Source of the DNA: Rhodocyclales bacterium
Lineage (GTDB): Bacteria; Pseudomonadota; Gammaproteobacteria; Burkholderiales; Rhodocyclaceae
Direction: 5' to 3'
DNA length: 64,000 bases
Assembly (NCBI GenBank): GCA_026399435.1
Contig: JAPLQX010000032.1
Span: forward strand, 32,281 to 96,280
In this document: positions 2,301-58,301 of the stretch, one piece after another
Layout of the letters: the number at the start of each line of letters is the position of its first letter
Numbering within the stretch: position 1 is the stretch's first letter
Notes under the pieces: model-generated
What the model was told of the DNA's origin: nothing
Database searches by the model: none
Seen by the model: the letters and a program-made list of their open reading frames with translations, nothing else
Position numbers and translations under genes: made by a program

Positions 2301-2322
2301 AGTCGGCGCTGGCGATACGGCA
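2301..2322 (+). repeat. Dispersed 22-base motif, copy (intergenic, upstream of metG)
   Basis: Matches AGTCGGCG at the 5' end and ACGGC near the 3' end; 20 of 22 bases agree with the window consensus. It is noncoding, about 80 bases before the metG start. Confidence 0.65.
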
Positions 2323-2398
2323 TTCCGCCCCGGTACAATGCCCCCCTTAAGATGCGGCAGGCCGCACGCCCGCCGCCAGCACCCGGAAAGACCGTGTC

Positions 2399-4573
2399 AT
2401 GACCCGCAAGATCCTCGTCACCAGCGCCCTGCCCTATGCCAACGGCGCGATCCATCTCGGCCACCTGGTCGAGTACATCCAGACCGATATCTGGGCGCGC
2501 TTCCAGAAAATGCGCGGCCACGAATGCTGGTACGTCTGCGCCGACGACACCCACGGCACGCCGATCATGCTGCGCGCCGAAAAGGAAGGCATCACCCCCG
2601 AACAGCTGATCGCACGCGTGCATGACGAGCACTCGCGCGACTTCGCCGGCTTCCATGTCGCCTTCGACAACTACTACACGACGCATTCGGAAGAGACGCG
2701 CCACTATTCCGAGGACATCTTCAGCAAGCTCAAGGCCGCCGGCCTGATCGAAATCCGCTCGATCGAGCAGTATTACGACCCGGTCAAGCAGATGTTCCTG
2801 CCCGACCGCTTCATCAAGGGCGAGTGCCCGAAGTGCGGCGCGAAAGACCAGTACGGCGACGCCTGCGAATCCTGCGGCGCGGCCTATGCGCCGACCGACC
2901 TGAAGAACCCCTACTCGGCCGTGTCCGGCGCCCAGCCGGTGCTGAAGTCCTCCGACCACTATTTCTTCCGGCTTTCCGACCCGCGCTGCCAGGCCTTCCT
3001 GCGCGAGTGGACGCAGCGCGGCGGCCGCTTGCAGTCCGAGGCCGCCAACAAGCTCCAGGAATGGCTGGGGGCGCCGGACGAGAACAAGCTCACGGACTGG
3101 GACATCTCGCGCGATGCGCCGTATTTCGGCTTCGAAATCCCCGGCGCGCCGGGCAAATTCTTCTACGTCTGGCTCGATGCGCCGATCGGCTACATGGGTT
3201 CGTTCAGGAATTTCTGCACGAAGAAGGGGCTCGACTTCGACGAGTTCTGGGGCAAGGATTCGAAGGCCGAGCTGTATCACTTCATCGGCAAGGACATCCT
3301 CTACTTCCACGCCCTGTTCTGGCCCGCCGAACTGGAACACGCCGGCTACCGCACGCCGACCAATGTCTTCGCCCACGGCTTCCTGACCGTCGACGGTTCG
3401 AAGATGTCGAAGTCGCGCGGCACTTTCATCACCGCCGAGTCCTATCTGACACAGGGCCTCAACCCGGAATGGCTGCGCTACTACTTCGCCGCCAAGTTGA
3501 ACGGCACGATGGAAGATATCGACCTCAACCTCGAAGACTTCACCCAGCGCGTCAATTCGGACCTGGTCGGCAAGTACATCAACATCGCCAGCCGCGCGGC
3601 GGGATTCATCTCCAAGCGCTTCGCCGGGCAGCTGCTGCATGCCCATCTCAATGAGCGTTTCCAGGCCGATCTGCCGGGCCTGATGGAAGCCGCCGAGGAA
3701 ATCGCCGGCCACTACGAGGCCCGCGACACCGCCCGCGCCCTGCGCCGCGTCATGGCCCTGGCGGACCAGATCAACCAGTATGTGGACAAGAACCAGCCCT
3801 GGGTGCTGGCCAAATCGGAGGAACACGCCGAACAGTTGCACACCGTGTGCAGCGTGCTGATCAATGCCTTCCGCCTGCTCACCATCTATCTCAAGCCGGT
3901 GCTGCCGAAACTGGCGCAGCGCGCCGAGGAATTCCTCAATGTCGCGCCGCTGCACTGGGCCGATGCCGGCCACCTGCTGCCGCCGGCGCACCTGATCAAT
4001 GCCTACGAGCACCTGATGCAGCGCATCGACGCCAAGCAGATCGACGCGCTGATCGCGGCCAACCGCGAATCGCTGGAGCCCACGGCGGCACCGGTCGCCG
4101 TATCACCAGCGCCGACTCCTGAGCCGCACTCGCCGCAACGTCATGCCCAGCATCAGCAGCACGTCGCCGCCCCCTCTCCCCAGCCCTCCCCCGCAAGGGG
4201 GGAGGGAGTAGAAGGCGGCGCTTTCGCGCCGGTCATCGGAATCGACGACTTCAACAAGGTCGACCTGCGCATCGCGCGCATCGTCGACGCGCAGCACGTC
4301 GCCGGCGCCGACAAGCTGATCCGACTGACCCTCGATATCGGCGAGGGCGACGGCAAGACGCGCACTGTCTTCGCCGGCATCAAGGCGGCCTACGATCCGG
4401 CCACGCTGGTCGGCCGCCTGACGGTGATGGTGGCCAACCTCGCCCCGCGCAAGATGAAGTTCGGCCTCAGCGAAGGCATGGTGCTCGCCGCCTCGGACGC
4501 CGACGGCAAGTCGCCCGGCATCTTCCTGCTCTCGCCCGACAGCGGCGCCCAACCCGGAATGCGGGTGAAGTAA
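2399..4573 (+). CDS. metG: Methionyl-tRNA synthetase
   Basis: Class I synthetase charging tRNA-Met in the cytoplasm. 724 residues, full length for the dimeric type. The HIGH signature is HLGH (residues 19-22), the KMSKS loop is at about 335-339, and a zinc knuckle is at about 142-160 (CPKCG...CESCG). The anticodon-binding helical domain runs to about 560. A Trbp111-like C-terminal tRNA-binding/dimerisation domain starts at about 615 ([15 protein letters not shown]). The linker between them, about 560-612, is low-complexity and contains a C-rich palindrome read in frame ([15 protein letters not shown] 4172-4206) and a copy of the 22-base motif (4096-4117). Neither belongs to the family core. 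The start has GGAAAG upstream. Confidence 0.97.
4096..4117 (-). repeat. Dispersed 22-base motif, copy inside metG
   Basis: On the minus strand it begins AGTCGGCGCTGG and ends ACGGCG (20/22). It is translated as VAVSPAPT in the interdomain linker of MetG, a different reading frame from the copies in other genes. Confidence 0.65.
4172..4206. repeat. C-rich palindrome inserted in frame in metG
   Basis: CCCTCCCCC (4184-4192), loop GCAA, then GGGGGGAGGG form a stem with one bulged base, preceded by CCCCCTCTCCCC. It encodes [11 protein letters not shown] in the linker of MetG. It belongs with similar elements in leuS, uvrD and the yqeY-dnaG gap. Confidence 0.65.
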
Positions 4574-4845
4574 TGCAAGTTCGCCGGCTGGTCATCACCG
4601 GCCTGGTTCAAGGCGTCGGCTTCCGCTACGGCATGGCGGCCGAGGCCCGGCTGCTGGGCGTCACCGGCTGGGTACGCAACCGCCGCGACGGCAGCGTCGA
4701 GGCGATGATCGCCGGCAACGCCAACCAGATCGAAGCGATGCTGGAGTGGAGCAACGTGGGGCCGGGCGGCGCCGTGGTCGAGAACGTCATGTGCGAAACC
4801 GCGAGCGGCGAATTCGCCGAGTTCGAGCTGCGACCAACCGCCTGA
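4573..4845 (+). CDS. acyP: Acylphosphatase
   Basis: A 90-residue cytoplasmic acylphosphatase, hydrolysing carboxyl-phosphate bonds. The family signature is intact: GLVQGVGFRYG (catalytic Arg at residue 18 in FRYG) and GWVRNRRDGSVEA (catalytic Asn near 36 in RNRRDG). Length matches the family. It starts at the last base of the metG stop codon (TAATG), so it is probably co-translated with metG. Confidence 0.95.
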   Translation: MQVRRLVITGLVQGVGFRYGMAAEARLLGVTGWVRNRRDGSVEAMIAGNANQIEAMLEWSNVGPGGAVVENVMCETASGEFAEFELRPTA

Positions 4846-4995
4846 ATTGCGCCGCAACGGCCGCCGCGTGGCCCTTATTGGGGCATTTCGCCAGTCGCTG
4901 GATTGTCGGCAGACTGTGGTTAATTCCACACCACGTGCACTGCAACATGCCTCTCCCCCTTGTCACTTAAGTTAGAAACAGGCATATTCGACGCC

Positions 4996-5718
4996 ATGCC
5001 CTCGAAATCCAAAACTCAAGCCAGCCTTTCGGAACGCCTGCCCTTTGTCGTGCGCTGCGTGCGCGACGAGTCGGAACTCGAAAAAGCGGTATCCATCCGC
5101 CGCAGCGCTTACGGGCGCCATGTGCCGGAGCTGGCGGCGCGATTTGCCACTCCCGAGCCCAGCGACCTCGATGGCAGCAGCCGTGTCCTGGTGGCCCTGT
5201 CGAGGGTCGACGGTGCGCCCCTGGGCAGCATGCGCTTTCGTACCAACCAGAACCAGCCGCTGGATCTCGAACACTCCGTAACCTTGCCCGGGGAGCTCAC
5301 GGGCAGAGTGCTGGCCGAAGCGACACGCCTTGCAGTCACCCAGGCAGCCGTAGGCCGGGTGGTCAAGGCGATGCTCATGAAGAGCATGTTCCTGTATTGC
5401 GAAGCCAACAGCGTTGACTGCATCGTGGCTGCCGCCCGCATGCCGATGGACCGGTTCTACCACTGGCTGCTGTTCGAGGATGTCTTTCCCGGTGGCGAGT
5501 TCATCCCGATGGCACATGCGGGCATGATCCCGCACCGGGTCATGGTGTGCGACGTGGTAGAAACCAAGCGCCGCTGGATCGAAGCCGACCATCCCTGGTT
5601 CGACTTGTTCTTCCGGGCTCAGCATCCGGACATCGAATTCGCTCTGGGCGCGAAAACCGCCGCCGGGCGCGATCATGACAGCGACGAGGAAGCAGAAGCT
5701 TCGATGTCATTGCGCTGA
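4996..5718 (+). CDS. FeeM-like N-acyltransferase (GNAT fold)
   Basis: About 240 residues from ATG 4996; an in-frame TTG at 4960 could add 12. The core, from FVVRCVRDESELEKAVSIR to FDLFFRAQHPDIEF, resembles N-acyl amino acid synthase (FeeM) domain proteins, which share the fold of acyl-homoserine-lactone synthases and transfer acyl chains from acyl-ACP to an amine. The recognised elements are GSMRFRTN, EATRLAV (the strand before the acyl pocket), MLMKSMFLYCEAN, and a late AHAGMIPHRVMVCDV. The substrate is not predictable. Upstream at 4915-4930 are inverted arms TGTGG...CCACA, a possible operator. The next gene is a c-di-GMP enzyme, a pairing that may link a membrane or lipid signal to c-di-GMP, though this is inference. 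Confidence 0.75.
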   Translation: MPSKSKTQASLSERLPFVVRCVRDESELEKAVSIRRSAYGRHVPELAARFATPEPSDLDGSSRVLVALSRVDGAPLGSMRFRTNQNQPLDLEHSVTLPGELTGRVLAEATRLAVTQAAVGRVVKAMLMKSMFLYCEANSVDCIVAAARMPMDRFYHWLLFEDVFPGGEFIPMAHAGMIPHRVMVCDVVETKRRWIEADHPWFDLFFRAQHPDIEFALGAKTAAGRDHDSDEEAEASMSLR

Positions 5719-5785
5719 CACGTGCCATTCGGTTCCAGGGAATGGCCGTGAACCGATCTAAACCGACGGCGCGGATTACGATTCA

Positions 5786-8776
5786 ATGAGTTCTCGTCGC
5801 GTTCGCCGATTGTTGCTTCTGGCACTGCGGGACCTCTTCCGCGGACTCCTGCGTCGCAATTCCACCTGGCTGGAACGGCTTTGCGTCATTGGCCTTCCGT
5901 TCGCGCTGGCTTGCGTGATGGCGCTGGCGCTGGTGAATTGGGAGTCCGACGGGCCGGTCGGCAACCCCGTGGACGTGCCATTCACCGCCATGGTCTTCGC
6001 TCCGGATGATGGCGGTATCAAACCTGCCACAGCCCGCGAGGCCCTCGGCGGAACCCAGCCGGTTTCATCCTTCGACACACAGCTGTCGGAAGCGCCTGTC
6101 TGGTTCAGTTTCACGCCGCCGGTGCTCCCGGCCGACACGGCAGGCCCGCCACTCGTTTACTTCCCGTCCCGCCATGCGCGCACGCTTTCCTGCTGGCGGG
6201 GTACCGCGTTGACCCCGCTGGGCAGCGCGACGCGCACCGCTACCAACGGGGCGCTGACATTGGCAAACGCCGGTTTCGCAACGACCTCCGTCGATCTCTC
6301 CAACGTGCCGGTCCTGTGCCGTGCCACATTCGTCGGCCCCGCCCGCCTCGCGGTAGCGGCCTGGAGATCCGCGGATTTCGACCGGACGGTGCAGGTGTTC
6401 GCGAGCGACATGGGCATGCTCGAGGGCGGCCTGACGGTGCTGGCCGTGTTCATGCTGCTGGCCGCAATTGTCAATCGCGAACCCGTCTACCTCGTGTTCG
6501 TGGCCTGGTTGCTGGTCAACGCCCGGCTGGGTGCGATTTCCGCCGGATGGGACACGCACTGGCTCGGCCATCAGGTGCCTGCAGCATGGCTGGACGGGAT
6601 ACGCAAGTTCGTCCTGGCGGCGAATTTCCCGCTGACGGCCTACCTGTTCCTGCGGCTGTTGCGCAAGGATCTTGACCGGATCGACAGCCGGGCGCTGCGG
6701 CAAGGGCTGGAACTGCTCTACATTCCGATGTTCGCTGGCGCGCTTTTCCTGCCGTACCGGCAGTTCATTCCGATGCTGTGGCTCGGCTCCGCTATCGGCT
6801 ACGGCATCATCGTCTATCTGCTGGCGCGCATTCTGCTGGTTTCGCAGTCCCGCATCGCCCTCTGGTTCGCGGCGTCGCTGGCGGTGACCGCGATTGCCGC
6901 CTTTGCCGAAATAATCCGGGCGATGCTGGGTCTGCCGGGGCTTATTCCCTACGTCAACAGCGTCACCGCTGCACTCTGTTCAGGCCTGCTGGCGGCGACG
7001 GCGCTGGCCGAGCAGATGCGCAGCGAACGATCCGGCCGCGAGGAGGCCGAGGTCGCCCTGCGCAAGACCTATGACCAGGTTCCGGTGGCTTTCTTCACTG
7101 CCGACGCGACGGGACGAATTCTGCGCGGCAATCCGGCCCTCGGTCGCCTTCTCGGCCAGCAGGCACTGGACGGCAAGGCGCACTGGCAGCAGCTCTTCGA
7201 GCCCGGGACATGGGAGTCGCTCAGTTTGACGCTGGCCCAAAGCCCCCGAGCGCAATTGCGCTTCCAGTCGATCGCCCAGGATGCGTGGTACGAGGTGCGG
7301 GCTTCAATCGGAGACGGGCTGATCGAAGGTTCGATAGAGGACATCACCGAATCCGTCACCGCCAACCGCAAGTTGATGTATCTGGCCGACCACGACCAGC
7401 TTACGGGGGCGCTGAGCCGGCGCGCGATCGAGCAGGCGCTGCGCGGCGCGATCCGATCCACCGGCCCTATGACACATAGCACGCTGGCCTACATGGATCT
7501 GGACCGGTTCAAGACGGTCAACGATCTTTTCGGGCACACCGCGGGTGACGCGGTACTGCGTCAGTTCTGCGCCCAGGTTGTCAAATCGCTCGGGAACGAC
7601 CATTTGCTCGGGCGCATCGGCGGCGATGAGTTTCTGATCCTGTTCAATGGCCTGTCCCTGGCGGAAGCCGGAGCAAAATGCCGCGAACTGGTCGATCAAA
7701 TCGACGGCAGTTCGTTCCGGGTTAACGACCTGGCTTTCCGTATCGGCGTGTCCTTCGGCGCGGTGGAGGTCACGGCCGGGCTCGAGGTGGCGGATCTGAT
7801 CTCCGCCGCAGATCGCGCGTGTCGCGAGGCCAAGCGCAAGTTCGTCGCCGGCCATGTCGTGACCTATGGCCCGGATGCGCCCGCGTTTCAGGAACATGAG
7901 GAAGAACGGGCGCTGGTGGCCCGCCTTACGCCGGAACAAGCGCCGCAATTCCTCGCCATCGCGATGCAGCCGATCATGTCGCTCAGCGATCCCTTCGGCG
8001 CGCTGGATTTCGAGGTGCTGCTGCGGGCACGGGCGCCGGACGGCACGGTGATGCCGGCCGGCCGGGTGATCGCGGTGGCCGAGGCGCACGGTCGCGTCGG
8101 GGTGATCGATCGATGGGTGCTGCGTGAAGTGCTGGAATGGCTCGACACCAATCTCGCACAACTGACCGCCACCCGTTTTGTGACCATGAATTTCTCCGGC
8201 GCCTCGATCAACGACGAGCAGTTCATGGCCGACGCCTATGCCATGCTGCGCGCCCACCCGCGCGCCGCCAGCCGTCTTTGCGCGGAAATCACCGAAGGCG
8301 TCGCCTTGCGCGACTTCGACCAGACGCGGCGGGTGATCGAACGACTGCGCGAGTTCGACGTAAAACTGGCACTGGATGACTTCGGTGCCGGCTACACCTC
8401 TTTCATGTACCTCAGCGACCTTCAGGCGGATGTCATCAAGATCGACGGCGCGATCGTCGAATCGGCGGCTCGCCACCCGTCGCGCCTGTCCATCGTGCAG
8501 GCCATCAGCGACCTGTCGCGCAACCTCGGCATGCGCTCGATCGCCGAATGGGTCGAGGACGCGGCAACCCTGCGCGCCATGGCCGAAGTGGGCATCGACT
8601 ACATCCAGGGCTTCGGCATCGCAAAAGCGATGCCGCCGGCAGAGATCCTCCTCGGCCCGCATGCCGCGCACTGGATCACCGATCCCGCGATCAGGAAGGC
8701 GCTGGTCGATATTCAGGCGAACCGCTCGGTCGTCGACGACGGCGTCACCTTCAGTACCGGCAAGAACCTGCACTAG
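5786..8776 (+). CDS. Membrane GGDEF/EAL protein with 7TM-like sensor and PAS
   Basis: 996 residues that probably make and/or degrade cyclic di-GMP. Order: N-terminal helix (about 30-50); a periplasmic region to about 205 resembling a DISM extracellular domain; about seven membrane helices to about 405; PAS (about 425-520); GGDEF domain (about 530-690) with intact RIGGDEF, so cyclase activity is plausible; EAL domain (about 710-970). The expected upstream RxxD inhibitory site is GNDH, so product inhibition is probably absent. The EAL signature is EVL (DFEVLLRA), which keeps the metal-binding Glu. Later EAL elements are intact: EITEG, LDDFGAGYTS, DVIKIDG. An isolated gene, 67 bases after the acyltransferase. 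Confidence 0.92.
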   Translation: MSSRRVRRLLLLALRDLFRGLLRRNSTWLERLCVIGLPFALACVMALALVNWESDGPVGNPVDVPFTAMVFAPDDGGIKPATAREALGGTQPVSSFDTQLSEAPVWFSFTPPVLPADTAGPPLVYFPSRHARTLSCWRGTALTPLGSATRTATNGALTLANAGFATTSVDLSNVPVLCRATFVGPARLAVAAWRSADFDRTVQVFASDMGMLEGGLTVLAVFMLLAAIVNREPVYLVFVAWLLVNARLGAISAGWDTHWLGHQVPAAWLDGIRKFVLAANFPLTAYLFLRLLRKDLDRIDSRALRQGLELLYIPMFAGALFLPYRQFIPMLWLGSAIGYGIIVYLLARILLVSQSRIALWFAASLAVTAIAAFAEIIRAMLGLPGLIPYVNSVTAALCSGLLAATALAEQMRSERSGREEAEVALRKTYDQVPVAFFTADATGRILRGNPALGRLLGQQALDGKAHWQQLFEPGTWESLSLTLAQSPRAQLRFQSIAQDAWYEVRASIGDGLIEGSIEDITESVTANRKLMYLADHDQLTGALSRRAIEQALRGAIRSTGPMTHSTLAYMDLDRFKTVNDLFGHTAGDAVLRQFCAQVVKSLGNDHLLGRIGGDEFLILFNGLSLAEAGAKCRELVDQIDGSSFRVNDLAFRIGVSFGAVEVTAGLEVADLISAADRACREAKRKFVAGHVVTYGPDAPAFQEHEEERALVARLTPEQAPQFLAIAMQPIMSLSDPFGALDFEVLLRARAPDGTVMPAGRVIAVAEAHGRVGVIDRWVLREVLEWLDTNLAQLTATRFVTMNFSGASINDEQFMADAYAMLRAHPRAASRLCAEITEGVALRDFDQTRRVIERLREFDVKLALDDFGAGYTSFMYLSDLQADVIKIDGAIVESAARHPSRLSIVQAISDLSRNLGMRSIAEWVEDAATLRAMAEVGIDYIQGFGIAKAMPPAEILLGPHAAHWITDPAIRKALVDIQANRSVVDDGVTFSTGKNLH

Positions 8777-8857
8777 GCCTCGCCCCGGCCGCTGAGCCCG
8801 CATGCCGGCATTGTGGCCGCCGACTTTCGCCGCGCCGGCCCATGCCATAATCGACCG

Positions 8858-13793: not shown

Positions 13794-13816
13794 AACGAAA
13801 GTAGTAGACGACCGAC

Positions 13817-13844: not shown

Positions 13845-13877
13845 GATTTCACCCCTCACCCTCGAAGGAGAATAAAA

Positions 13878-15086: not shown

Positions 15087-15556
15087 TCACGCCGTGACCA
15101 TGGCCTTGACCATGGCCAGGTAGGGCGCCGCTTCCGGAGCGTTTTCAGCCGGCGCCCACGGCGCCTTTTCGGCCGGAGTGAAGGGCAGATAAGGGCCGGC
15201 CTTGGCTTCGAGAAAAACGGTATCGGGTTCCAGCGCCACGGCCGTATGCCAGGTGCCGTGCGGAATATCGACGCCGATCGCCGTACCGCCGGCGCCGACT
15301 TTCACGCTGCGCATTATTCCTCCCTGATCGTCGAACAGCACCAGCCCGAGGAGGCCGCGCAGGACGACGAAGGTCTCGTCCTTGTTCGGATCGAGATGGC
15401 GATGCGGCGGGATGTAGGAATCGGTCTGCATCGCATTGAGCAGGCGATGCCCCGGATGCTCGTCGTAGGGATGGAAATTGCGATTCTTGCGCCGACGCGG
15501 ACTGGCGGCCGCCTCGACGCAGAGTGCATCCAGCAGCGCGTTGTCGATCAGCGTAA

Positions 15557-23009: not shown

Positions 23010-23082
23010 CGCATTGACTCTGCTGGGGGGAACGCGAGATTTTAGACCTCTACGGCCGGCAGGACCATTACGGAATTCCACG

Positions 23083-26271: not shown

Positions 26272-27546
26272 CTATTGCGACAAAGACCTTGGCGGCGCTG
26301 ACCGAACGCACCTCAACGCCCAGTAATTGAAAGCCGCATACACGACATAAGCCAGCGCCCACGCCAGCCCGATCGCCGGTAGCGAGAGCGCACCGGGCAG
26401 CAGCACCAGCAGCGCGGCGAACAGAGGCAGGGACAGAAGCTCCCCGACCGTCACCGCCCATCCCGCGCCGCGCGCGAAGAGGCCGAACAAAAAGATCCAC
26501 GACAGCATGCGCAGGGCATCGCCGGCGAAGAAGGGCAAGGCATCGAGCCGGCCGACGGGAAAGCCTTCGCGGTAAAGCAGCGCCAGCACCTGCGGCAACA
26601 GCAGCCACAACATGCAGAGCGCCAGCTGCGCGGGGCGCAGGACCTGCTTCACCGCTGACCGCAGTTCCGCGGCAAAGGCCGGTGCCGCCTTCACCGCCGC
26701 CAGCCGCGGCAGGAAATAGGCGTTGAGCAGGCCTGCCGCGACGGCCGTGATCCATTCGCTGGTGCGCCACAGCGCCTGCACTGCGCCAACCGCTTCCCAC
26801 GACGCCGATGCCGCGATCTCCAGGCGCGCGACGGCCATGGCGGCCGGACTCAGGATGCCGATCGCGATGCCTGCCGCTACGAACGGGCGCAAGCCGTGTC
26901 CCGTCGGCAGCGTCTCTTTGGCAGATCGTGAATCGATGATCAGCAGCAGCGTCGCCACGGTGCCGAACAGGGCCTGACCGCCGAGCAGGTACGACAGTTC
27001 GGCATTCGGTGGCGCCCGCCACAAGGCGAGCAGCGGCACGCTCAACTGCGCCGCAACGACCACGATGGCGCGGCCTGGCCGCGCGCGCCCGAGCAGCCAG
27101 GCGACGAACAGTCCGGGCGCGACGCCGATCCAGCCGACGGCGAGCGCCGGCAGGACCAGCGGCGCCAGATGCGGCGGCAGCAGCAAGGGGAGCAGGCCGG
27201 ACACGGCCAGCAGCGCGAGCACGGCGAGGCAGATGCCCGAGAGCATCATGCCAAGGCGCAAGGCATCGCCCAGGAGTCGGCGCTGGTGGTACGGCGCGAC
27301 GCCCGCCACGCGGCCGGTAAGCCCGATGCCGACGCCGAGCAGCGTGACGCCGGCGACCATCTCGGCCAGGCTGTTCACCTGCGCCCAGTGCGCGACGAGC
27401 TCCGCGCCGCCGCGCAGCGCGAGCAGCTTGTCGATCAGCGCGCGGCCGGCCAGCCCGGTGAGGACGAAGCCAAGCGCGGGCAGCAGCCGGGCGAGTTGTC
27501 GGCGATGCGGCGTGGCGTCAGAAGGTGCCGGGATAGGCACCGCCAT
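26272..27546 (-). CDS. Flippase-like polytopic membrane protein
   Basis: 424 residues with about 10-12 hydrophobic segments. The start (LARLLPALGFVLTGLAGRAL) and the helix spacing resemble MATE-like lipid or oligosaccharide flippases (Wzx/MVF superfamily), though no catalytic motif exists to confirm this. A short cytoplasmic lead (PAPSDATPHRRQ) precedes the first helix. It overlaps the SDR gene upstream by 29 bases. No glycosyltransferases are adjacent, so the substrate is open. A copy of the 22-base motif lies inside at 27275-27296. Confidence 0.65.
   Translation of the reverse strand: MAVPIPAPSDATPHRRQLARLLPALGFVLTGLAGRALIDKLLALRGGAELVAHWAQVNSLAEMVAGVTLLGVGIGLTGRVAGVAPYHQRRLLGDALRLGMMLSGICLAVLALLAVSGLLPLLLPPHLAPLVLPALAVGWIGVAPGLFVAWLLGRARPGRAIVVVAAQLSVPLLALWRAPPNAELSYLLGGQALFGTVATLLLIIDSRSAKETLPTGHGLRPFVAAGIAIGILSPAAMAVARLEIAASASWEAVGAVQALWRTSEWITAVAAGLLNAYFLPRLAAVKAAPAFAAELRSAVKQVLRPAQLALCMLWLLLPQVLALLYREGFPVGRLDALPFFAGDALRMLSWIFLFGLFARGAGWAVTVGELLSLPLFAALLVLLPGALSLPAIGLAWALAYVVYAAFNYWALRCVRSAPPRSLSQ
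27275..27296 (+). repeat. Dispersed 22-base motif, copy inside the flippase-like gene
   Basis: AGTCGGCGCTGG...TACGGCG, 19/22. It lies antisense to the gene (which reads PYHQRRL there), a third reading frame for the motif. Confidence 0.6.
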
Positions 27547-28307: not shown

Positions 28308-29096
28308 TCAAGAATCAGTTTTCAGAAAACCGGCGACCAGCTGCTTGAAGGCCTCCGGCTGCTCGATGCAGCATAGATGCGATGCCGATGGAATGACTTC
28401 CAGCCGCGCACCGGGAATGCTTGATGCAATGACTTCGCTCATCGCCGGCGGCGTGCCGGGATCCTGTGCCCCGACGATGACCAGCGTCGGCGTGCGAATG
28501 GCGCCGATCCGCGCCGTGATGTCGAGATGGCGAATAGCATCGACGCAGCCGGCATAGCCCGCCGCCGGTGTATTCGCGATCAGCCGTCCGATGCGCTGCA
28601 TCATGTCGGACCGCGCGGCACGAAACTCCGGCGTGAACCAGCGTCCCAGCGTAGCCTCGACCAGACCGGCGCAACCCTGGGCGCGGACGATGGCGAGGCG
28701 TTCGTCCCACAGCGGCGAAGCCTCGAGCGGAATGCGGCTGGTGGAACTGGCAATCACCAGTCTGTTCAAGCGCTGTGGCGCGAGCAAGCCCAAATGCTGG
28801 CCGATCATGCCGCCCATCGACAAGCCGAGGAAGTGCGTGCGCTCGATCTTCAATGCATCGAGCAGGCCGGTGACATCGGCGGCCAGTTGCTCGAAGCTGT
28901 AAGCCCCATCCGGCACGGCAGTGCCGCCGTGGCCGCGCGTGTCGTAGCGCAGCACGGTGAAAGTCGGCGCCAGCGCTGCGGCGAGTTCGTCCCACATGGT
29001 CAGGTCGCAGGAGAGTGAATGCGACAGCGCGACCCAGGGGCCGTTGCCTTCGACAAGGTAGCAAACGTCGATGTCATTGACGCGGATGGTTTTCAT
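28308..29096 (-). CDS. Alpha/beta hydrolase, 3-oxoadipate enol-lactonase-like
   Basis: 262 residues from the ATG at 29096, overlapping the uvrD stop (ATGA). An alpha/beta hydrolase fold: oxyanion region LSHSLSCDLTMWDELAAAL, nucleophile elbow FLGLSMGGMIGQ (Ser in GLSMGG), acid region VGAQDPGTPP, and base SASHLCCIEQP with the catalytic His. It resembles PcaD-type lactonases, but no other beta-ketoadipate genes lie nearby, so the substrate is uncertain. 10 bases separate it from the SDR start downstream. Confidence 0.85.
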   Translation of the reverse strand: MKTIRVNDIDVCYLVEGNGPWVALSHSLSCDLTMWDELAAALAPTFTVLRYDTRGHGGTAVPDGAYSFEQLAADVTGLLDALKIERTHFLGLSMGGMIGQHLGLLAPQRLNRLVIASSTSRIPLEASPLWDERLAIVRAQGCAGLVEATLGRWFTPEFRAARSDMMQRIGRLIANTPAAGYAGCVDAIRHLDITARIGAIRTPTLVIVGAQDPGTPPAMSEVIASSIPGARLEVIPSASHLCCIEQPEAFKQLVAGFLKTDS

Positions 29097-35485: not shown

Positions 35486-38242
<2,757 letters not shown>

Positions 38243-38252: not shown

Positions 38253-38834
38253 ATGCGCGCAACGAAACTGTCCCTCATCCTGCTGTCGATCAGCCTGCTG
38301 ACCGCCTGCGGCTTCAAGTTGCGCGGCAGCGCGGAACTGCCCGGCCACAAACTGCCGTTCGCCACCATCGCCCTCTCGCTGGCGCCCACTTCGGAGTTCT
38401 ATGCCCTGCTCAAGCGCAACATCGAGGCATCGTCGCCGGGAACGCGGGTGGTCGGCGAACTCAAGGAGGCGGACGCCGTCCTGACGGTGCTGGGCGACAC
38501 GAGCCAGAAGAACATCCTCTCGCTCAACGCCGCAGGCCGTGCCCGCGAATACCAATTGGTGCGGACCTTCAGCTTCAAGGTAAATGCGAACGTCGTACCT
38601 GCGACGCCCGCGCCGCAGGTCAAATACACGGACGCACGTCCCGCGGTCGTTGCCACCGAGTACATCCCGCCCAGCACGATCACGCTCCGCCGCGACATCA
38701 CCTTCAGCGACGACCTGGTGCTGTCCAAGGAATCCGAAGAAGCGCTGCTCTGGCGCGACATGGAAGGCGATCTGGTGCAGCAGTTGATGCGGCGGCTGGC
38801 GGCGGCGAAACTGCAGCCGGTCAAGACCGAGTAA
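38253..38834 (+). CDS. lptE: LPS-assembly lipoprotein LptE
   Basis: 193 residues starting 10 bases after leuS. Lipobox ISLLTACGFKLRG puts the lipidated Cys at residue 19. The CGFKLRG start, YALLKRNIE and the late LVQQLMRRLAAAKL match LptE, the plug lipoprotein of the outer-membrane LptDE translocon for lipopolysaccharide. The leuS-lptE-holA order is conserved in Beta- and Gammaproteobacteria, which supports the call. Confidence 0.92.
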   Translation: MRATKLSLILLSISLLTACGFKLRGSAELPGHKLPFATIALSLAPTSEFYALLKRNIEASSPGTRVVGELKEADAVLTVLGDTSQKNILSLNAAGRAREYQLVRTFSFKVNANVVPATPAPQVKYTDARPAVVATEYIPPSTITLRRDITFSDDLVLSKESEEALLWRDMEGDLVQQLMRRLAAAKLQPVKTE

Positions 38835-39742: not shown

Positions 39743-40998
39743 TGGATGTAAAGACCTACATGCAGCAAGTCGGCCGCAACGCCCGCGAGGCGTCGCGCGC
39801 CACGGCGCGCGCCTCGACCGGCGCCAAGAACACGGCGTTGCTGGCCATGGCGGCAGCGATCCGCGAACGCAGTGGCGAACTGCTCGCGGCCAATGCCGCC
39901 GATGTCGCCGAAGCGCGCGCCAACGGCCTCGACGCGGCAATGATCGACCGCCTGACGCTCACCGGGACGAGCGTCGAGGCCATGGCGCAAGGGCTGGAAC
40001 AGGTGGCGGCGCTGCCCGATCCGGTGGGCGAAATCAGCGACTTGAAGCGCCGGCCCTCCGGCATCCAGGTCGGCAAGATGCGCGTCCCGCTCGGCGTGGT
40101 CGGCATCATCTACGAAGCGCGGCCGAATGTCACCGCCGACGCCGCCGCCCTGTGCCTGAAATCGGGCAACGCCGCGATCCTGCGCGGCGGCAAGGAAGCC
40201 CTGCGCTGTAACCAGGCCATCGCCGCCTGCGTGCGCGCCGGTCTCGCCGCGGCGGGCCTGCCCGAAACGGCAGTGCAGGTGATCGAAACCACCGACCGCG
40301 AGGCGGTCGGCCATCTGGTCGCCATGCCGGAGTACGTCGATGTGATCGTGCCGCGCGGCGGCAAGGGGCTCATCGAGCGCATCTCGAAAGAGGCGCGCGT
40401 GCCGGTGATCAAGCATCTCGACGGCAACTGCCACGTCTATGTCGATGATGCCGCCGATGCCGCCAAGGCGCTCGCCATCCTCGAAAACTCCAAGACCCAA
40501 CGGCTGGGCACCTGCAATACGGCCGAATCGCTGCTGATCGCGCGCTCAGTCGCCGTGTCGCTGGCGCCGACTCTTTGCAACATGCTCACTGCCCGCGGCG
40601 TCGAAATCCGCGGCTGTGCGGAAACGTGCAAGCTGGTGCCGCAGGCAATCGCGGCCACCGAAGAAGACTATTACGCCGAATACCTGGCCGCGATCATCTC
40701 GGTCAAGGTGGTGGCCGATGTCGGCGAAGCCATCGCCCATATCAACAAGTATTCCTCGCAGCACACCGACGCCATCGTCACCGAGAACTACACGAACGCG
40801 ATGCGTTTCCTGCACGAGGTGGATTCAGCTTCCGTGATGGTCAATGCCTCGACCCGCTTCGCCGACGGCTTCGAATACGGCCTCGGCGCCGAAATCGGAA
40901 TTTCCACCGACAAGTTCCACGCCCGCGGCCCGGTGGGGCTGGAAGGCCTCACCTCGCAGAAGTGGATCGTGCTGGGCAACGGGGAAGTTCGCGACTAG
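39742..40998 (+). CDS. proA: Gamma-glutamyl phosphate reductase
   Basis: 418 residues, beginning in the holA stop overlap (TAATG). Proline biosynthesis: converts gamma-glutamyl phosphate to glutamate semialdehyde with NADPH. Aldehyde dehydrogenase fold. The catalytic Cys is in [13 protein letters not shown] (near 255), with [12 protein letters not shown] and [10 protein letters not shown] present (read here as [15 protein letters not shown]). Length is normal. A 22-base motif copy lies inside at 40551-40572 with no disruption of the frame. Confidence 0.97.
40551..40572 (-). repeat. Dispersed 22-base motif, copy inside proA
   Basis: AGTCGGCGCCAG...CACGGCG on the minus strand, 20/22; translated as VAVSLAPT, the same frame as in metG. 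Confidence 0.6.
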
Positions 40999-49266: not shown

Positions 49267-49284
49267 GTCGCGGCCCGCACCCGC

Positions 49285-53093: not shown

Positions 53094-53099
53094 GCAAGC

Positions 53100-53873
53100 T
53101 CAGGCCGGGCAGGCGTGCCTTTGCAGGGCCTGCAATATCTCGCCACTCGCCCTGTCCTGAACGAAAACCACCACTCCAAGGTCGGCGCGCTTCCAGCCGG
53201 CATCCAGCGCGAGTTCCTGATGCAGGGACAAACTTCCGTCCTTGCCCAGCGTCAGCGGGCCGATCAGGCGGCGCACCACATAGTCGTGATGCAGGGTCTT
53301 GCCGGCGTTCTCCCCAGCGCGCACCCGTGATTCGAGGTTGTTCTCGTACAGCGCGAGCCAGACCTCGACGGCGGCAGTCGTGGCGGGAACCCGGATCTCG
53401 GCGCCGACGGTCAGATGCCTGCCGCCAGTTGCGCCAAGCTCAAGAGCGATGCTGGCACCCGAACGAGTTTCGCCCACACCATCGAGCGGGCTCCCGGCGC
53501 TGCGCCAGTCGCGCCCGTTGCGCAAGAACTGCGGCGTATAGACCAGGCGCGAATTGGCAAGACCGGCCATGACCTGCTGACGCCGGGTATGCAGCGGGCT
53601 GGCGAAGCGGTCGACCCAGCCCAGACGATCCCAGTAATCGACATGGAAGGCCAGCGGCACGAGGCGCCCGGCATAGCCGGCCTCGCTCTTGAATTGCGAC
53701 AGCTTTTGGTCAGCGGGCGGACAACTGTCGCAACCCTCCGAGGTGTAGAGCTCGAGCAGCACGGCGCGCTGCGCTGCGCTTTGCGCAACGCACGCCGGCG
53801 CCGCAAGGGCCTCTGCGCCCGACATCGAAGCCAGGCAGGCAAGCAGCAAACAGGCGGACCGGCAGGCATTCAT
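53100..53873 (-). CDS. Secreted DUF1223 protein
   Basis: 257 residues from the ATG at 53873, giving a clear signal peptide (LLLACLASMSGAEALAAP); a longer frame starts upstream without better support. DUF1223 core: VLLELYTSEGCDSCPPADQK with a thioredoxin-like CDSCPP, then LAFHVDYWDRLGWVDRF, and YTPQFLRNGRDW. Secreted thioredoxin-like-fold proteins of unknown redox role. Convergent with xerD, 6 bases apart. Confidence 0.85.
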   Translation of the reverse strand: MNACRSACLLLACLASMSGAEALAAPACVAQSAAQRAVLLELYTSEGCDSCPPADQKLSQFKSEAGYAGRLVPLAFHVDYWDRLGWVDRFASPLHTRRQQVMAGLANSRLVYTPQFLRNGRDWRSAGSPLDGVGETRSGASIALELGATGGRHLTVGAEIRVPATTAAVEVWLALYENNLESRVRAGENAGKTLHHDYVVRRLIGPLTLGKDGSLSLHQELALDAGWKRADLGVVVFVQDRASGEILQALQRHACPA

Positions 53874-54019
53874 GGCATGGCTCCAGCAGATTGACGGCGC
53901 CCCTGGCGTGGTGCGCTTCTGCCTTGGACGCATGAGAGCGGGATTCCTTACTCACCATGGTAAATCCCCTTGGGGACGCGAGGCCGCCGGTCATTGGGCA
54001 GAGGGGTAGAATTCATCGC

Positions 54020-54511
54020 ATGAAACCCGATACCCACGCCCCCGAAACGCCGGCGACCAAGTTCCTCAACAAGCACGGCGTCGCCCATTCCAACCATCTC
54101 TACGAGTACGAGGAGCATGGCGGCACGCAGGTGTCCGCCCGCGAGCTCAACGTCTCCGAGCACGCCGTGGTCAAGACCCTGGTCATGGAAGACGAAAACG
54201 CGAAGCCGCTGATCGTGCTGATGCACGGCGACCGCAAGGTGTCTACCAAGGAACTGGCGCGCCAGATCGGGGTCAAGAAGATCAGTCCCTGCAAGCCGGA
54301 GGATGCGCTGCGTCACACCGGCTACATGGTCGGCGGTTGTTCTCCGTTCGGCACCAAGAAGCCGCTGCCGGTGCATTTGGAGAAGACCATCCTCGACCTG
54401 CCGCTGATCTACATCAACGGCGGCAAGCGCGGCTATCTGGTCGGCGTCCATCCGCACGACATCCTGCGCGTGCTGCAGCCCAAGATCGTGGAGTGCGGTC
54501 TGAAAGACTGA
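54020..54511 (+). CDS. ybaK: YbaK/Cys-tRNA(Pro)-type deacylase
   Basis: 163 residues from ATG 54020. YbaK/ProX-like editing domain that hydrolyses mischarged aminoacyl-tRNA: ATKFLNKHGVAHSNHLYEYE, VVKTLVMEDENAKPLIVLMH, and CKPEDALRHTGYMVGGCSPF, shortened to HTGYMVGGCSPFGTKKPLP, with the key Lys and Gly residues of the family. Acts in trans in the cytoplasm to remove Cys from tRNA-Pro. Divergent from the DUF1223 gene and convergent with folB. Confidence 0.92.
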   Translation: MKPDTHAPETPATKFLNKHGVAHSNHLYEYEEHGGTQVSARELNVSEHAVVKTLVMEDENAKPLIVLMHGDRKVSTKELARQIGVKKISPCKPEDALRHTGYMVGGCSPFGTKKPLPVHLEKTILDLPLIYINGGKRGYLVGVHPHDILRVLQPKIVECGLKD

Positions 54512-54525
54512 TCAGCAAGGCAGGG

Positions 54526-54879
54526 TTACTTCTCCCGGCTGCGCTCGATCTGCACGCCGACGCGGCGCACACCCTTCATGATGCCCATCTTGGCGATGCT
54601 GATCTTGACCCAGGGCGCGCCGAACTCGTTCAGCAGCAGGCCGATCACGTATTCGCCGAGCGTCTCCAGCAGGTTGAAATGACGCGTCGCCAGTTCGGCG
54701 CGGATGCGATCGATCACCGCGTCGTAGCGGATGGTCTTGTCGATGTCGTCGTTCTGCGCCGCCTCGTCGGGCACGCCGAAGGTCAGGCTGATCTCCAGCG
54801 TCTGCGACGCCGCCTTCTCGCGCTCGAAAATTCCGACGTTCGCGTCGACCCGCATGTCGTCGATGAAGATGAAGTCCAT
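54526..54879 (-). CDS. folB: Dihydroneopterin aldolase
   Basis: 117 residues from the ATG at 54879 (MDFIFIDDMRVDANVGIFER). Folate biosynthesis: cleaves dihydroneopterin to the hydroxymethyl precursor. Family features: VGIFEREK with the active-site Glu, RYDAVIDRIRAEL, FNLLETLGEYVIGLLL, and KISIAKMGIMKGVRRVGVQI with the catalytic Lys. Often named FolX/FolB. The gap upstream (54880-55110) holds repeat-like hairpins. Confidence 0.92.
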   Translation of the reverse strand: MDFIFIDDMRVDANVGIFEREKAASQTLEISLTFGVPDEAAQNDDIDKTIRYDAVIDRIRAELATRHFNLLETLGEYVIGLLLNEFGAPWVKISIAKMGIMKGVRRVGVQIERSREK

Positions 54880-54924
54880 CACGCCTCCGCAGGGCCGCCC
54901 CAAGGGGGCGTGAAGTCAACAACG

Positions 54925-54948
54925 CGGAAGCCACGCAGCGGCTGAACC
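54925..54948 (-). repeat. 24-base repeat, copy 1
   Basis: On the minus strand GGTTCAGCCGCTGCG, then TGGCTTCCG. It matches the plus-strand sequence at 60615-60638 in 23 of 24 bases. Both copies lie in noncoding DNA beside hairpins. The gap 54880-55110 otherwise holds GC-rich hairpins and no gene. Confidence 0.6.
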
Positions 54949-55014
54949 ATGGTCACCCCTTTCCTTGGGGCGAAGGCGGGGTTTCGCAGGGCACTGCTCT
55001 GCGCCGCCGTAGCC

Positions 55015-55036
55015 GGTCGGCTGTGCAAAGCCGACC
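55015..55036. repeat. GC-rich hairpin in the folB-plsY gap
   Basis: GGTCGGCT, loop GTGCAA, AGCCGACC, a perfect 8-base stem. No T-run follows, so it is not called a terminator. Confidence 0.4.
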
Positions 55037-55110
55037 GTGGGACGGGGGCTGGGGGATAGGTCATGTTCACAGCTCCAGATTAGAATTCAGGCCATTCTAG
55101 GGAATCCACA

Positions 55111-55707
55111 ATGAACCTGCTTGTTTCCGCCGTCCTCGGCTATCTGCTCGGCTCCGTGCCGTTTGCCGTGATCGTCTCGCGCGCCTTCCGCCTGGCCGAT
55201 CCGCGCAGCTTCGGGTCAGGCAATCCGGGCGCGACCAATGTGCTGCGCAGCGGCAACAAGCTGGCGGCATTGCTGACGCTGATCGGCGACGCAGCCAAGG
55301 GCTGGCTCGCCATGTTCATCGCCGCAAGAGTCGGCGCTGACGGGACGGCGATCGCGGTCACGGGCCTGGCGGCTTTCCTCGGCCATGTATTTCCCTTCAC
55401 CCTCGGCTTCAGGGGCGGCAAGGGGGTGGCGACCGCGCTGGGCGTGCTGCTGGGCTTCTCCGCTGCCCTGGCTGGCATCACGGCCGGCATCTGGCTCGCG
55501 GTTGTCGCCATTACGCGCTATTCGTCGCTTGCAGCATTGGTCGCGGCGGCAACGGCGCCCTTCCTCACTTGGTGGCTGCTCGGAAAAGCCGACATCACCG
55601 CGGTGGTCGCCCTCATGTGCGCGGTGCTGATCTACCGCCACAAAAGCAACATTCGCAAACTGCTCGCCGGCAGCGAAGGCCGCGTCGGCGGCAGAAAACA
55701 GGACTGA
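55111..55707 (+). CDS. plsY: Glycerol-3-phosphate acyltransferase PlsY
   Basis: 198 residues. Integral membrane acyltransferase making lysophosphatidic acid from acyl-phosphate. The three loop motifs are SGNPGATNVLR (near 39), GHVFPFTLGFRGGKGVATAL and ALVAAATAP / KADIT. About five to six membrane helices. Divergent from folB, with tsaD nearby on the opposite strand, a usual association. The 22-base motif copy at 55329 encodes RVGADGTAI. Confidence 0.95.
   Translation: MNLLVSAVLGYLLGSVPFAVIVSRAFRLADPRSFGSGNPGATNVLRSGNKLAALLTLIGDAAKGWLAMFIAARVGADGTAIAVTGLAAFLGHVFPFTLGFRGGKGVATALGVLLGFSAALAGITAGIWLAVVAITRYSSLAALVAAATAPFLTWWLLGKADITAVVALMCAVLIYRHKSNIRKLLAGSEGRVGGRKQD
55329..55350 (+). repeat. 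Dispersed 22-base motif, copy inside plsY
   Basis: AGTCGGCGCTGACG...ACGGCG, 19/22; translated as RVGADGTA. Confidence 0.55.
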
Positions 55708-55736
55708 AGCGCACGCCGCTGGCGACGCGGCCAAAC

Positions 55737-56138
55737 TCAGAACCTGGTTGCAACCGGCGCGGTGCGCAAATGCGGGACGTACTGTTTATCGACAACACCG
55801 ATATGACCGACCAGCCATTCTTTCAGCATGTTGGTCATGCCGGCACTGACGTCTTCACGAATCGAACGCTGCTTGATTTCAAGCAGATCGACAGAGAACG
55901 CCCGGTGGGCGGCGATATGGGCTTCCAGGTCGGGGTATCCGTGCAGACGCATCAAGGCTTCTTCCACCGCAAAGTGGACGTTGACGAAACTGTTCAGTTC
56001 GACGAGCGCGAAATGCACCGCAGACCATTTGTCATCCGAAGTAACCGCCTGTTCCAGACGCGCCACAACATCGAACAGGACCTGATGCTGCTGGTCAATC
56101 TCGTGAATTCCGGTAAGCAGGTTGTCGGTCCAGCCCAT
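55737..56138 (-). CDS. Bacteriohemerythrin
   Basis: 133 residues from the ATG at 56138 with AAGGAGCC upstream. Di-iron oxygen-binding hemerythrin: HEIDQQHQVLFD (His, Asp/Glu), VHFAVEEALMRLHGYPDLEA and HIAAHRAFSVDL, WLVGHIGVVDKQYVPHL with the final ligands. Cytoplasmic oxygen carrier or sensor, as commonly found in betaproteobacteria living at oxic-anoxic boundaries. Divergent from the double-cNMP gene across 160 bases. Confidence 0.93.
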   Translation of the reverse strand: MGWTDNLLTGIHEIDQQHQVLFDVVARLEQAVTSDDKWSAVHFALVELNSFVNVHFAVEEALMRLHGYPDLEAHIAAHRAFSVDLLEIKQRSIREDVSAGMTNMLKEWLVGHIGVVDKQYVPHLRTAPVATRF

Positions 56139-56300
56139 CGTGGCTCCTTGCAGGTCTTTGAACATAAACAAAGCGGATGATTGTAGTCTGGATTTGTGCC
56201 CCGATTGACAGGCCACAAGGCCCGGGCTCCGATTGCGCGGCGTCCCTTATAATGCCGACTCGCTGCAAAACGCACATCTCTCGATCCAGGACACACTTGC

Positions 56301-57206
56301 ATGGATGATTTGGACTTTTCAGCCAAACCCGACGCATCGGCCCCCAAGCCGGTGGTGAAGCCGAGCCCGCCTGGCGAACCCGCTTCTCTCTATGAACCCA
56401 GGCTGGCGCTGGAGTTTTTCAAGATCGCCGGAACGCTGGAGCAGTTCCCGGCCGGCAAGCAGATATTTGTCGAAGACGAAAAATCCTCCGGGTTTTTCTC
56501 CAAGGGCGCCCGCATCTATTTGCTGCTCGAGGGCGACGTTGCGCTGACGCTCAAGGGCAAGCCGCTCGAACTGGTCCTGCCCGGCGAGACGTTCGGCGAG
56601 ATGGCGGCCATCGCCGACATCCCCCGAAGCGCGACGGCGACGGCCCGGAAGAATTGCCGGGTACTGTCGCTCGATGAAAAAGCTTTCCTCAATTCGCTGC
56701 AACAGATGCCCGAGTTTGCATTGATGCTGATGAGCGCCATGGCCCAGCGCCTGCGGCGCAGCGTCGCAAAACTGGCTACAGCGAAAAAGGCTTCGGTCGC
56801 GGCACTGGTCCAGAAGAATCTGCTGGACAAGAAAATGCTTGCGGAATTGCAGCAGGCGCTTGGCGATCCGTCGCCGACAGTGGCCCAGGCCGGTCAGAAT
56901 GTCCTTACCCAAGGCGCCGTGGGCGCCTGCATGTTCGTCGTGATCCAGGGCCGCATTGCGATATCGGTCGACGGCCTGCTGATCGAGCACGTCGGACCGG
57001 GCGGAACCTTCGGCGAGATGGCGCTGGTCGATCGCGCCGGCCGCGCCGCTACCGCCACCGCGGAAGCTGACAGCGCTTGGTTCCTTATAGCGCGCGAAGC
57101 CTTTCTTTCCATGGTCAAGTCGAGGCCGGCATTCGGCCTTGCGCTGCTGCGTTCCATGAGCGGGCGCGTGCAGCACATCGGCAGCCTCCTGCGCGACGGA
57201 TCCTAG
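56301..57206 (+). CDS. Double cyclic-nucleotide-binding-domain protein
   Basis: 301 residues. Two cNMP-binding domains (about 50-165 and 195-295): first LLLEGDVALTLKGKPLELVL, FGEMAAIADIPRSATATA; second FVVIQGRIAISVDGLLIEHV, FGEMALVDRAGRAATATAEA. Between them lies a helix (AMAQRLRRSVAKLA). No DNA-binding HTH, kinase or channel is attached, unlike CRP. The phosphate cassettes keep G-E and R-[SA]-A patterns, so ligand binding is plausible. It may regulate a partner protein by interaction. Co-directed but not overlapping with neighbours; tsaD lies downstream on the minus strand. Confidence 0.85.
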   Translation: MDDLDFSAKPDASAPKPVVKPSPPGEPASLYEPRLALEFFKIAGTLEQFPAGKQIFVEDEKSSGFFSKGARIYLLLEGDVALTLKGKPLELVLPGETFGEMAAIADIPRSATATARKNCRVLSLDEKAFLNSLQQMPEFALMLMSAMAQRLRRSVAKLATAKKASVAALVQKNLLDKKMLAELQQALGDPSPTVAQAGQNVLTQGAVGACMFVVIQGRIAISVDGLLIEHVGPGGTFGEMALVDRAGRAATATAEADSAWFLIAREAFLSMVKSRPAFGLALLRSMSGRVQHIGSLLRDGS

Positions 57207-57212
57207 CGGCGC

Positions 57213-58229
57213 TCAGGCCAGCAGATCGAGCGGCCAACGCGGACGGACGACGAAAGCGCCCCGGGCCGAGTCCGCCACGTCGCCCTGCAGCAGGCGCTGC
57301 GCGCCGCAAAAGGCAATCATCGCACCGTTGTCGGTGCACAGCTCCAGTTCGGGATAGAACACCCGGCCGCCGATCTTCGCCATCGCCTCGTCCAGCCGCT
57401 GGCGCAAACGGCGATTGGCACCGACGCCGCCGGCCACCACCAGTGACGAGAGTCGGTGCTGGCGACACGCCGCGACTGCCTTGGCCGCCAGCACTTCGGT
57501 TACCGCTTCCTGAAATTCCGCGGCGAGATCGGCTTTGTCGGCGTCCGTCAAGTCGTGAGCCCGGGCAGCGGTCAGCACCGCGGTCTTCAGGCCGGAAAAG
57601 CTGAAGGACAAATCGCCGCTGTTCAGCATCGGCCTAGGCAACTTGTAGCGACCCGGCTTGCCGCTTTCGGCCAGCTTCGCCAGCGCCGGCCCGCCGGGGT
57701 AACCCAGGCCGAGCAGCTTGGCGGTTTTGTCGAAGGCCTCGCCTGCCGCGTCGTCGAGCGATTCGCCGAGCAACTGGTAGGCGCCGACCCGCGTCACGCA
57801 CATCAACTGCGTATGCCCGCCGGAGACCAGCAGGGCGATGAACGGGAAGACCGGCACGTCGTCCGCCAGCAGCGGCGAGAGCAGATGGCCTTCGAGGTGA
57901 TGGACGGGTAGCGCGGGTATGCCCAGTGCCATTGCCAGTGCCTCGGCAAAACTGGCGCCGACCAGCAAGGCCCCCGCCAGCCCCGGCCCCGCCGTGTAGG
58001 CGATCGCATCGATGTCGCGGCGCGTACATCCCGCTTCGGCCAGCACGCGCTCCAGCAGCGGGATCAGCCGCCGCACATGATCGCGCGACGCCAGCTCCGG
58101 CACCACGCCGCCATAGGCCTCGTGCATCGCCACCTGGGTATGCACGGCATGTCCGAGCAGGCCGCGCTCCGTGTCGTACAGCGCAACGCCGGTTTCGTCG
58201 CAGGAGGATTCGATGCCGAGGACTTTCAT
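57213..58229 (-). CDS. tsaD: tRNA N6-adenosine threonylcarbamoyltransferase TsaD
   Basis: 338 residues from the ATG at 58229. Kae1/Qri7 family, transferring threonylcarbamoyl to A37 of ANN-decoding tRNAs with TsaB and TsaE. Metal-binding HHLEGH (near 110) and phosphate-binding [40 protein letters not shown]. Length is standard. A 22-base motif copy (57451) lies on the strand opposite to the gene, read as CRQHRLSS by TsaD. Confidence 0.97.
57451..57472 (+). repeat. Dispersed 22-base motif, copy inside tsaD
   Basis: AGTCGGTGCTGG...CACGCCG, 20/22; antisense to tsaD, so the coding frame differs from that in plsY or proA. Confidence 0.6.
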
Positions 58230-58279
58230 GGGCGGCATTCTACCGGCTGGCTATAATCGGCTGAAGCAACACCGCCGAA

Positions 58280-58301
58280 AGTCGGTGCTGGCGACACGGC
58301 G
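58280..58301 (+). repeat. Dispersed 22-base motif, copy (intergenic)
   Basis: AGTCGGTGCTGG...CACGGCG, 21/22 to consensus. In the 96-base divergent gap between tsaD and the receiver-like gene, hence not protein-driven. Confidence 0.7.

Follow-up and report, generated by a model that had tools for sequence, protein, structure and literature searches.

DNA uptake sequences (DUS), known from the Neisseriaceae, form dialects that differ at a few bases between lineages (PMC3630211), occur at one per 400-1100 bp and are sparse in acquired islands (PMC7371117). The uptake signal sequences (USS) of the Pasteurellaceae reportedly evolve through point mutations within regions of homology and accompany strong uptake discrimination (PMC7811141); their 9 bp core is AAGTGCGGT or ACAAGCGGT, and their predicted receptor is ComN/PpdA (PMC12616744). 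According to that 2025 paper, only the Neisseriaceae and Pasteurellaceae are known to choose self-DNA by short genomic motifs (PMC12616744). Here we consider a motif dispersed through a 64,000-nucleotide stretch of a Rhodocyclales genome (Rhodocyclaceae; contig JAPLQX010000032.1, positions 32,281 to 96,280), the whole of which is hereafter the window. A sequence-only reading had noticed it as about 14 copies of a degenerate 22-base word and had offered as candidate roles a DNA uptake sequence, a chromosome-organization or replication site, or a very small mobile repeat. The motif probably works as a DNA uptake sequence in ten Rhodocyclaceae genera, with dialects that follow lineage; its abundance, dialects and point-mutation origin are jointly hallmarks of DUS and USS. 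Among the proposed roles, an uptake sequence fits best, while sites of replication or segregation fit poorly and the mobile repeat is contradicted. No report of this motif was found in the open-access literature searched, subscription papers lying outside that search.

Motif definition, abundance and dialects

The full motif, RARAGTCGGCGCTGGYGRNACGGCG, is 24-25 bp long and two-armed, as defined by a logo of 213 sites (30 from the window's own genome and 183 from named genome contigs), in which the core columns are invariant by construction since the sites were picked via the core (AGTCGGYG-N8-ACGGCG). Three A/G-rich bases (RAR) ahead of the 22-base word proved in the logo to be part of the motif, and the logo together with a weight matrix from the relative G002 gives the consensus form AAAGTCGGCGCTGGYGRNACGGCR. 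The eight bases earlier called variable are mostly CTGGYGRN. Within the window, the full 25-mer matched at 16 sites with at most four mismatches, whereas 60 dinucleotide shuffles averaged 0.07 sites. A looser count of the core at up to three mismatches (48 matches against 34.0 +/- 5.9 in shuffled sequence, with 48 reached in 2 of 100 shuffles) was too permissive and was replaced by the 25-mer and the weight matrix.

The genome-wide scan proposed in the sequence-only reading revealed an overwhelming enrichment over the reversed-pattern control, both in the own genome and in its relatives. At 2.88 Mb and 81% completeness, the own genome carries 212 exact-core copies, 96 on the plus and 116 on the minus strand, and none of the reversed pattern; exact-core copies occur in all 31 genomes of its genus, g1 (14-565 each, with 0-2 for reversed controls). 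A degenerate 24-mer was then counted at up to three mismatches in 326 Rhodocyclaceae genomes that are at least 80% complete and represent 68 genera, a carrier being defined as a genome with at least 100 copies. Carriers amounted to 60 of the 326 genomes and 10 of the 68 genera (g1, g32, g34, g43, g47, g62, g69, g70, g88 and g90), with 108-860 copies each; two further genera showed traces (43 copies against 4 in controls, and 35 against 2), and non-carrier genomes otherwise held at most 67. TsaD from carriers of other genera shares 74-85% identity with the window's TsaD where matches are full-length, g90 genomes matching only in pieces, and TsaD from non-carrier genera 60-73%. Because carrier TsaD is thus nearer to the window's TsaD than non-carrier TsaD is, the comparison suggests that the carriers form one clade.

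Beyond the family, in 384 genomes from other families of the order, counts allowing up to two mismatches peaked at 19, 19 and 16. The first two belong to G739 and G759 (family f15) and the third to G482 (family f38), where controls gave 3; perfect copies in G482 (e.g., C5:60969, C34:277116 and C45:8908) span three dialects, as if acquired from several carrier genera. A version of the motif with 16 specified bases was found in at least 118 stretches, and 64 of the 80 named matches listed were titled Rhodocyclales, Rhodocyclaceae, Sulfuritalea, Rugosibacter or Sulfurisoma, some of the titled matches among those listed coming from groundwater or lakes. At least 120 stretches in viral collections also hold an exact copy. 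The density of extra copies was 0.010/kb in 120 viral loci and 0.037/kb in 118 genome loci, both sets having been selected for holding a copy.

In some genomes, exact counts and counts allowing three mismatches diverge strongly because the whole copy set has shifted. Within g1, three species (G001, G016 and G028) have AGTTGG in 307, 361 and 358 copies and AGTCGG in 46, 61 and 48, and the other 28 members of the genus have 0-7 AGTTGG copies; the orthologous sites of G028 in xerD, plsY and tsaD carry the T variant at all three. Six g43 genomes have 364-648 copies at up to three mismatches yet only 3-19 exact-core ones; in one of the six, G072, the last base is A in 90% of sites, and the G ending is retained in other g43 genomes. 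The motif begins AAAGTCAGTC in the g34 genome G063, and AAAGTCAGCGCC... is common in the g47 genome G076, whose matrix comes from only 15 sites. Lineage dialects with such concerted change are expected of uptake sequences, and hundreds of unlinked sites sharing one base change point to something reading them.

Copies in the window and their orthologous sites

Scores below come from the weight matrix, which was trained on G002 and reached at best 24.7 bits in 40 order-3 Markov control windows. Coordinates refer to the full motif.

2298..2322, plus strand: intergenic, upstream of metG; one core mismatch; 35.4 bits (start given earlier as 2301)
4096..4120, minus strand: antisense in metG (Pfam tRNA-synt_1g); exact core; 33.7 bits
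13652..13676, plus strand: sense, RKVGAGGTA; 29.1 bits
15279..15303, minus strand: start of a short open reading frame (ORF), sense frame KVGAGGTA; 40.2 bits
20640..20664, minus strand: sense, EEVGVGDTA, in an alcohol-dehydrogenase-family (quinone oxidoreductase-like) gene; 34.0 bits
23080..23104, plus strand: probably intergenic, upstream of a malic-enzyme gene; 26.1 bits
25630..25654, minus strand: probably intergenic; 34.6 bits
27272..27296, plus strand: antisense in ORF 26272-27546 (no Pfam match); 28.9 bits
28959..28983, plus strand: copy missed earlier, antisense in an alpha/beta hydrolase; one mismatch; 25.7 bits
38098..38122, plus strand: degraded copy in a leucyl-tRNA synthetase gene; 15.9 bits, below the control maximum
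38369..38393, minus strand: weak degraded copy, possibly chance; 13.2 bits, below the control maximum
40551..40575, minus strand: antisense in proA (aldehyde-dehydrogenase family); 32.3 bits
42600..42624, plus strand: sense, AKVGAGDTV, in a chalcone-isomerase-like gene; 34.6 bits
52319..52343, plus strand: sense, SIVGADETA, in a tyrosine recombinase gene (xerD-like); 32.2 bits; aligned with orthologs
55326..55350, plus strand: sense, ARVGADGTA, in plsY; 36.4 bits; aligned with orthologs
57448..57472, plus strand: antisense in tsaD; 27.5 bits; aligned with orthologs
58277..58301, plus strand: adjoins tsaD, probably intergenic; 36.7 bits

All 14 copies first noticed exist where they had been placed, ten with the exact core and four with one mismatch, and they score 26.1-40.2 bits. 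The fifteenth, at 28959-28983, lies barely above the control maximum, and the degraded matches at 38098 and 38369 fall under it. The xVGAxxTA frame holds for the six same-strand coding copies, that at 15279 being judged from its flanking letters. Four copies had been called intergenic; this stands for the one at 2298, while those at 23080, 25630 and 58277 fall inside ORF ends as drawn by the ORF caller, although an intergenic position is still plausible or probable. At 23080 it is plausible because the malic-enzyme domain (Pfam) begins only at residue 64 of the overlying ORF. Pfam bore out the names MetG, TsaD and PlsY, the xerD-like tyrosine recombinase, proA as an aldehyde-dehydrogenase family protein, and the chalcone-isomerase-like and quinone-oxidoreductase-like (alcohol-dehydrogenase family) genes, but gave no match over the cut-off for the products named lipoprotein, cupin and flippase-like. 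Three imperfect 18-base repeats at 564-683 are unrelated to the motif, and an Rfam scan of positions 1-3000 gave no match.

Protein-guided alignments of xerD, plsY and tsaD (20-21 genomes per gene, from 20 fetched tsaD neighborhoods and the own genome) placed the motif at identical codon positions in different species, with substituted codons in genomes lacking it. Fourteen of 20 xerD rows have the site, as do 15 of 21 plsY rows (counting the G076 copy at three mismatches) and 16 of 21 tsaD rows, and the protein alignment is gap-free over it in 20/20, 20/21 and 21/21 rows, respectively, the sole gapped row being the PlsY of G113, which is one residue longer. Since the alignment runs without gaps over the site, motif-less genomes hold same-length substituted sequence. 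In these three genes, copies thus arose by point mutation at homologous positions, a trait of uptake sequences.

The motif was also compared with its flanks in rows that are not independent, because they share sites and genomes, and from which those with a gap in the motif were excluded. Same-dialect g1 pairs agreed at 0.887 of motif positions and 0.835 of flanking positions (364 of 425 gap-free, 61 dropped). Toward the carriers G091 and G061, the motif was again better conserved (0.904 vs 0.815, with 8 of 44 rows dropped, and 0.872 vs 0.777, with 11 of 41 dropped), and toward G028 it stood barely above its flanks (0.868 vs 0.849, 6 of 40 dropped). The relation was reversed toward the low-copy G017 (0.683 vs 0.836; 28 of 30 pairs gap-free) and toward G026 (0.759 vs 0.828; 30 of 43 gap-free).

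Several carrier genera include genomes with few or no copies, namely G017 in g1, G293 in g43, G205 and G358 in g34, and G272 and G229 in g90, where the motif was either lost or never gained. G017 has 14 exact-core copies and 72 at up to three mismatches, its orthologous sites being eroded; the low motif likeness toward it could reflect erosion, or else those sites may never have been gained in that lineage. In G026, listed as 10% contaminated, the motif is reduced at the tsaD region, but its genome-wide counts (110 exact-core copies, 255 at up to three mismatches) do not amount to loss. G293 and G205 stand well apart from their genus mates in TsaD (67% and 69%), and these lineages may never have had the motif. 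The low-copy genomes are candidates for locating the receptor by comparison.

Chromosomal layout and competing explanations

Four 100-kb stretches of G002 (400 kb in total), scanned with the weight matrix, contain 79 sites, 40 on the plus and 39 on the minus strand, or about one per 5 kb. Sixty-five lie in genes, 13 are intergenic (7.8 expected) and one is at an edge. The genic sites use all six reading frames, albeit unequally (26, 17, 12, 5, 4 and 1), in agreement with the earlier view of a nucleotide-level signal rather than a protein domain. After masking of a CRISPR-like array, no 10-mers in G002 exceed those of the motif in over-representation, and motif 10-mers also rank first in G072 and G063. 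That array, at G002:C1 near 1,352,300-1,353,300, has a period of ~67 bases and the repeat GTAGCTATCCGGGGTGAGAGAGGGAGCTACAA; its words were not found in the window.

The favored xVGAxxTA frame could be read as chance, codon bias or a protein motif, an account to which we give almost no credence given reversed controls of 0-2 against 14-565 copies and the use of six frames as well as intergenic positions. A very small mobile repeat inserting copies of itself would leave hundreds of near-identical dispersed copies such as these, and it could draw on the motif gaps in 270 of 1049 rows of the raw nucleotide alignments of site regions, whose causes are unsorted, and on the xerD segment immediately upstream of the site, which differs in length between genomes. 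Nevertheless, insertion is contradicted for xerD, plsY and tsaD because the site is gap-free in the protein-guided alignments, with orthologous codons bearing same-length substitution where the motif is absent, and we regard it as very improbable.

Sites such as matS, KOPS, parS and Noc sites are short chromosomal words bound by proteins, and the motif might likewise be bound by a cytoplasmic nucleoid-organizing or segregation protein that shapes the chromosome. Many short sites, a spacing in G002 that is evener than random (coefficient of variation 0.78 vs 1.02 expected, P 0.005) and the fewer extra copies in viral contigs would suit such a role. The consensus, however, is non-palindromic (6 of 24 positions agree with its own reverse complement), and orientation is unrelated to local GC skew (37/42), both strands being used in all four stretches, two of positive and two of negative skew; the check for strand bias suggested at the outset accordingly found no polarity there. 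None of the four chromosomal stretches sampled lacks sites (11, 21, 22 and 25 per 100 kb), G017 has few of them despite belonging to the same genus, with the orthologous ones eroded, and hundreds of sites change one base in concert, all of which makes a chromosome-shaping role unlikely in our judgment. Another self-driving DNA transaction, whether a Chi-like recombination hotspot, a defense self-marker or a modification site, would also yield genome-wide enrichment and dialects. Chi-like sites, though, are short and polar with replication, a polarity absent here, and restriction targets are normally avoided, whereas this motif is enriched; we rate such a transaction as quite unlikely.

Competence genes, proposed mechanism and described systems

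From the observed sequence pattern, we infer uptake itself, a receptor that is probably a minor pilin, and the drive that would spread the copies. A receptor on the competence pilus would preferentially bind DNA fragments bearing the motif and lead to their import, and the imported self-DNA would recombine with the chromosome. Alleles gaining a good copy would spread through more frequent uptake, so that copies would accumulate by point mutation on both strands wherever the protein tolerates them. A shift in receptor preference would cause the copies to drift jointly to a new dialect, and loss of competence or of the receptor would let them decay.

As expected of an uptake sequence, carriers hold competence parts (a ComEC domain and pilins), though non-carriers have them too. 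The ComEC domain was found in 20 of the 21 carriers examined, the miss being G200, which is 85% complete. ComEC presence was set aside as a discriminator, being found in 38 of 42 genomes, with misses in G200 (carrier), G358 and G229 (low-copy) and G100 (non-carrier). No pilin gene tracking the motif was found, whether in the ComP_DUS family, by DNA-pattern pilin signatures in eight genomes or when the pilins of G017 and G026 were set against those of G002 and G005, in a survey that is incomplete because some pilins were lost at the ORF filter and those without G-F at the cleavage site escape the strict DNA pattern. A PilE-like minor pilin of the ComP_DUS family with a CW...C end lies beside a FimT-like pilin (L309:9786-10328, with relatives among L415-L444), and its better matches within the genus are 37-69% identical while TsaD is 87-95% identical. 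It was not named as the receptor, since some carriers lack a good match.

Several observations weigh against an uptake sequence. Examination of 12 non-carrier genera and nine low-copy genomes revealed the ComEC domain in 11 and 7 of them, respectively, and pilins of the ComP_DUS family (PF16732), found in 50 of the 53 genomes searched, occur irrespective of the motif; ComP_DUS scores of at least 60 bits were reached in 19 of 30 non-carriers and only 3 of 21 carriers. In the incomplete survey, the pilins of G017 and G026 showed no clear loss, and in G008, the g1 genome richest in exact-core copies, the PilE-like pilin is matched only partially (43 bits). The motif falls below its flanks toward the carriers G153 and G165, with which few g1 sites are common (0.737 vs 0.804; 36 of 70 pairs gap-free), and toward the non-carriers G034 and G113 (0.520 vs 0.704; 2 of 46 pairs gap-free in the raw nucleotide alignment). 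Together with those for G076 (0.682 vs 0.756; 17 of 29 pairs gap-free), these low values reflect sites that the different genera do not have in common. The top 10-mer of G076 is not the motif, and no inverted motif pairs within 150 bp were seen in the G002 stretches. Moreover, the motif is ~5-13 times sparser than DUS, and its conserved word has roughly double the length of the DUS and USS cores (9-12 nt).

We lean slightly toward the broader proposal that the motif would mark a third, independently evolved system of self-recognition for transformation, in which at least five dialects would act as mating barriers and the receptor would be of neither the ComP nor the ComN type. If so, a third bacterial family, one of environmental bacteria, would possess an uptake tag, giving a handle on gene flow and genetic tools for these organisms. 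It would also offer an independent test of why uptake sequences arise, as selected self-recognition or as a by-product of biased uptake, with dialect switches and apparent loss within a single genus available for that purpose.

Compared with other dispersed words, the motif in the G002 stretches displays none of the palindrome, replication polarity or regional confinement typical of matS, KOPS or Chi-type sites. REP/BIME and RPE are short dispersed repeats; unlike them, the motif is gap-free at orthologous codons in three genes and mostly genic in G002. It resembles the Pasteurellaceae USS in its abundance, its dialects, its conserved positions beyond a core and its origin by point mutation, but compared by eye it reads AAAGTCGGCG...ACGGCG where the USS core reads AAGTGCGGT or ACAAGCGGT (GCGG), and USS occur at about one per 1 kb against about one per 5 kb for the motif in G002. 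With the Neisseriaceae DUS, whose receptor is ComP, it shares many copies on both strands, lineage dialects and the presence of ComP_DUS-family minor pilins in carriers. The DUS, however, is a 12 bp word of the ATGCCGTCTGAA type with an invariant CTG core, whereas the motif is two-armed and 24-25 bp long; by eye, the two share only a short GACGGC(A) stretch, which may be chance, and the CTG of the motif lies outside the DUS context. Judged by its letters, the motif belongs to neither the Neisseriaceae nor the Pasteurellaceae sequence family.

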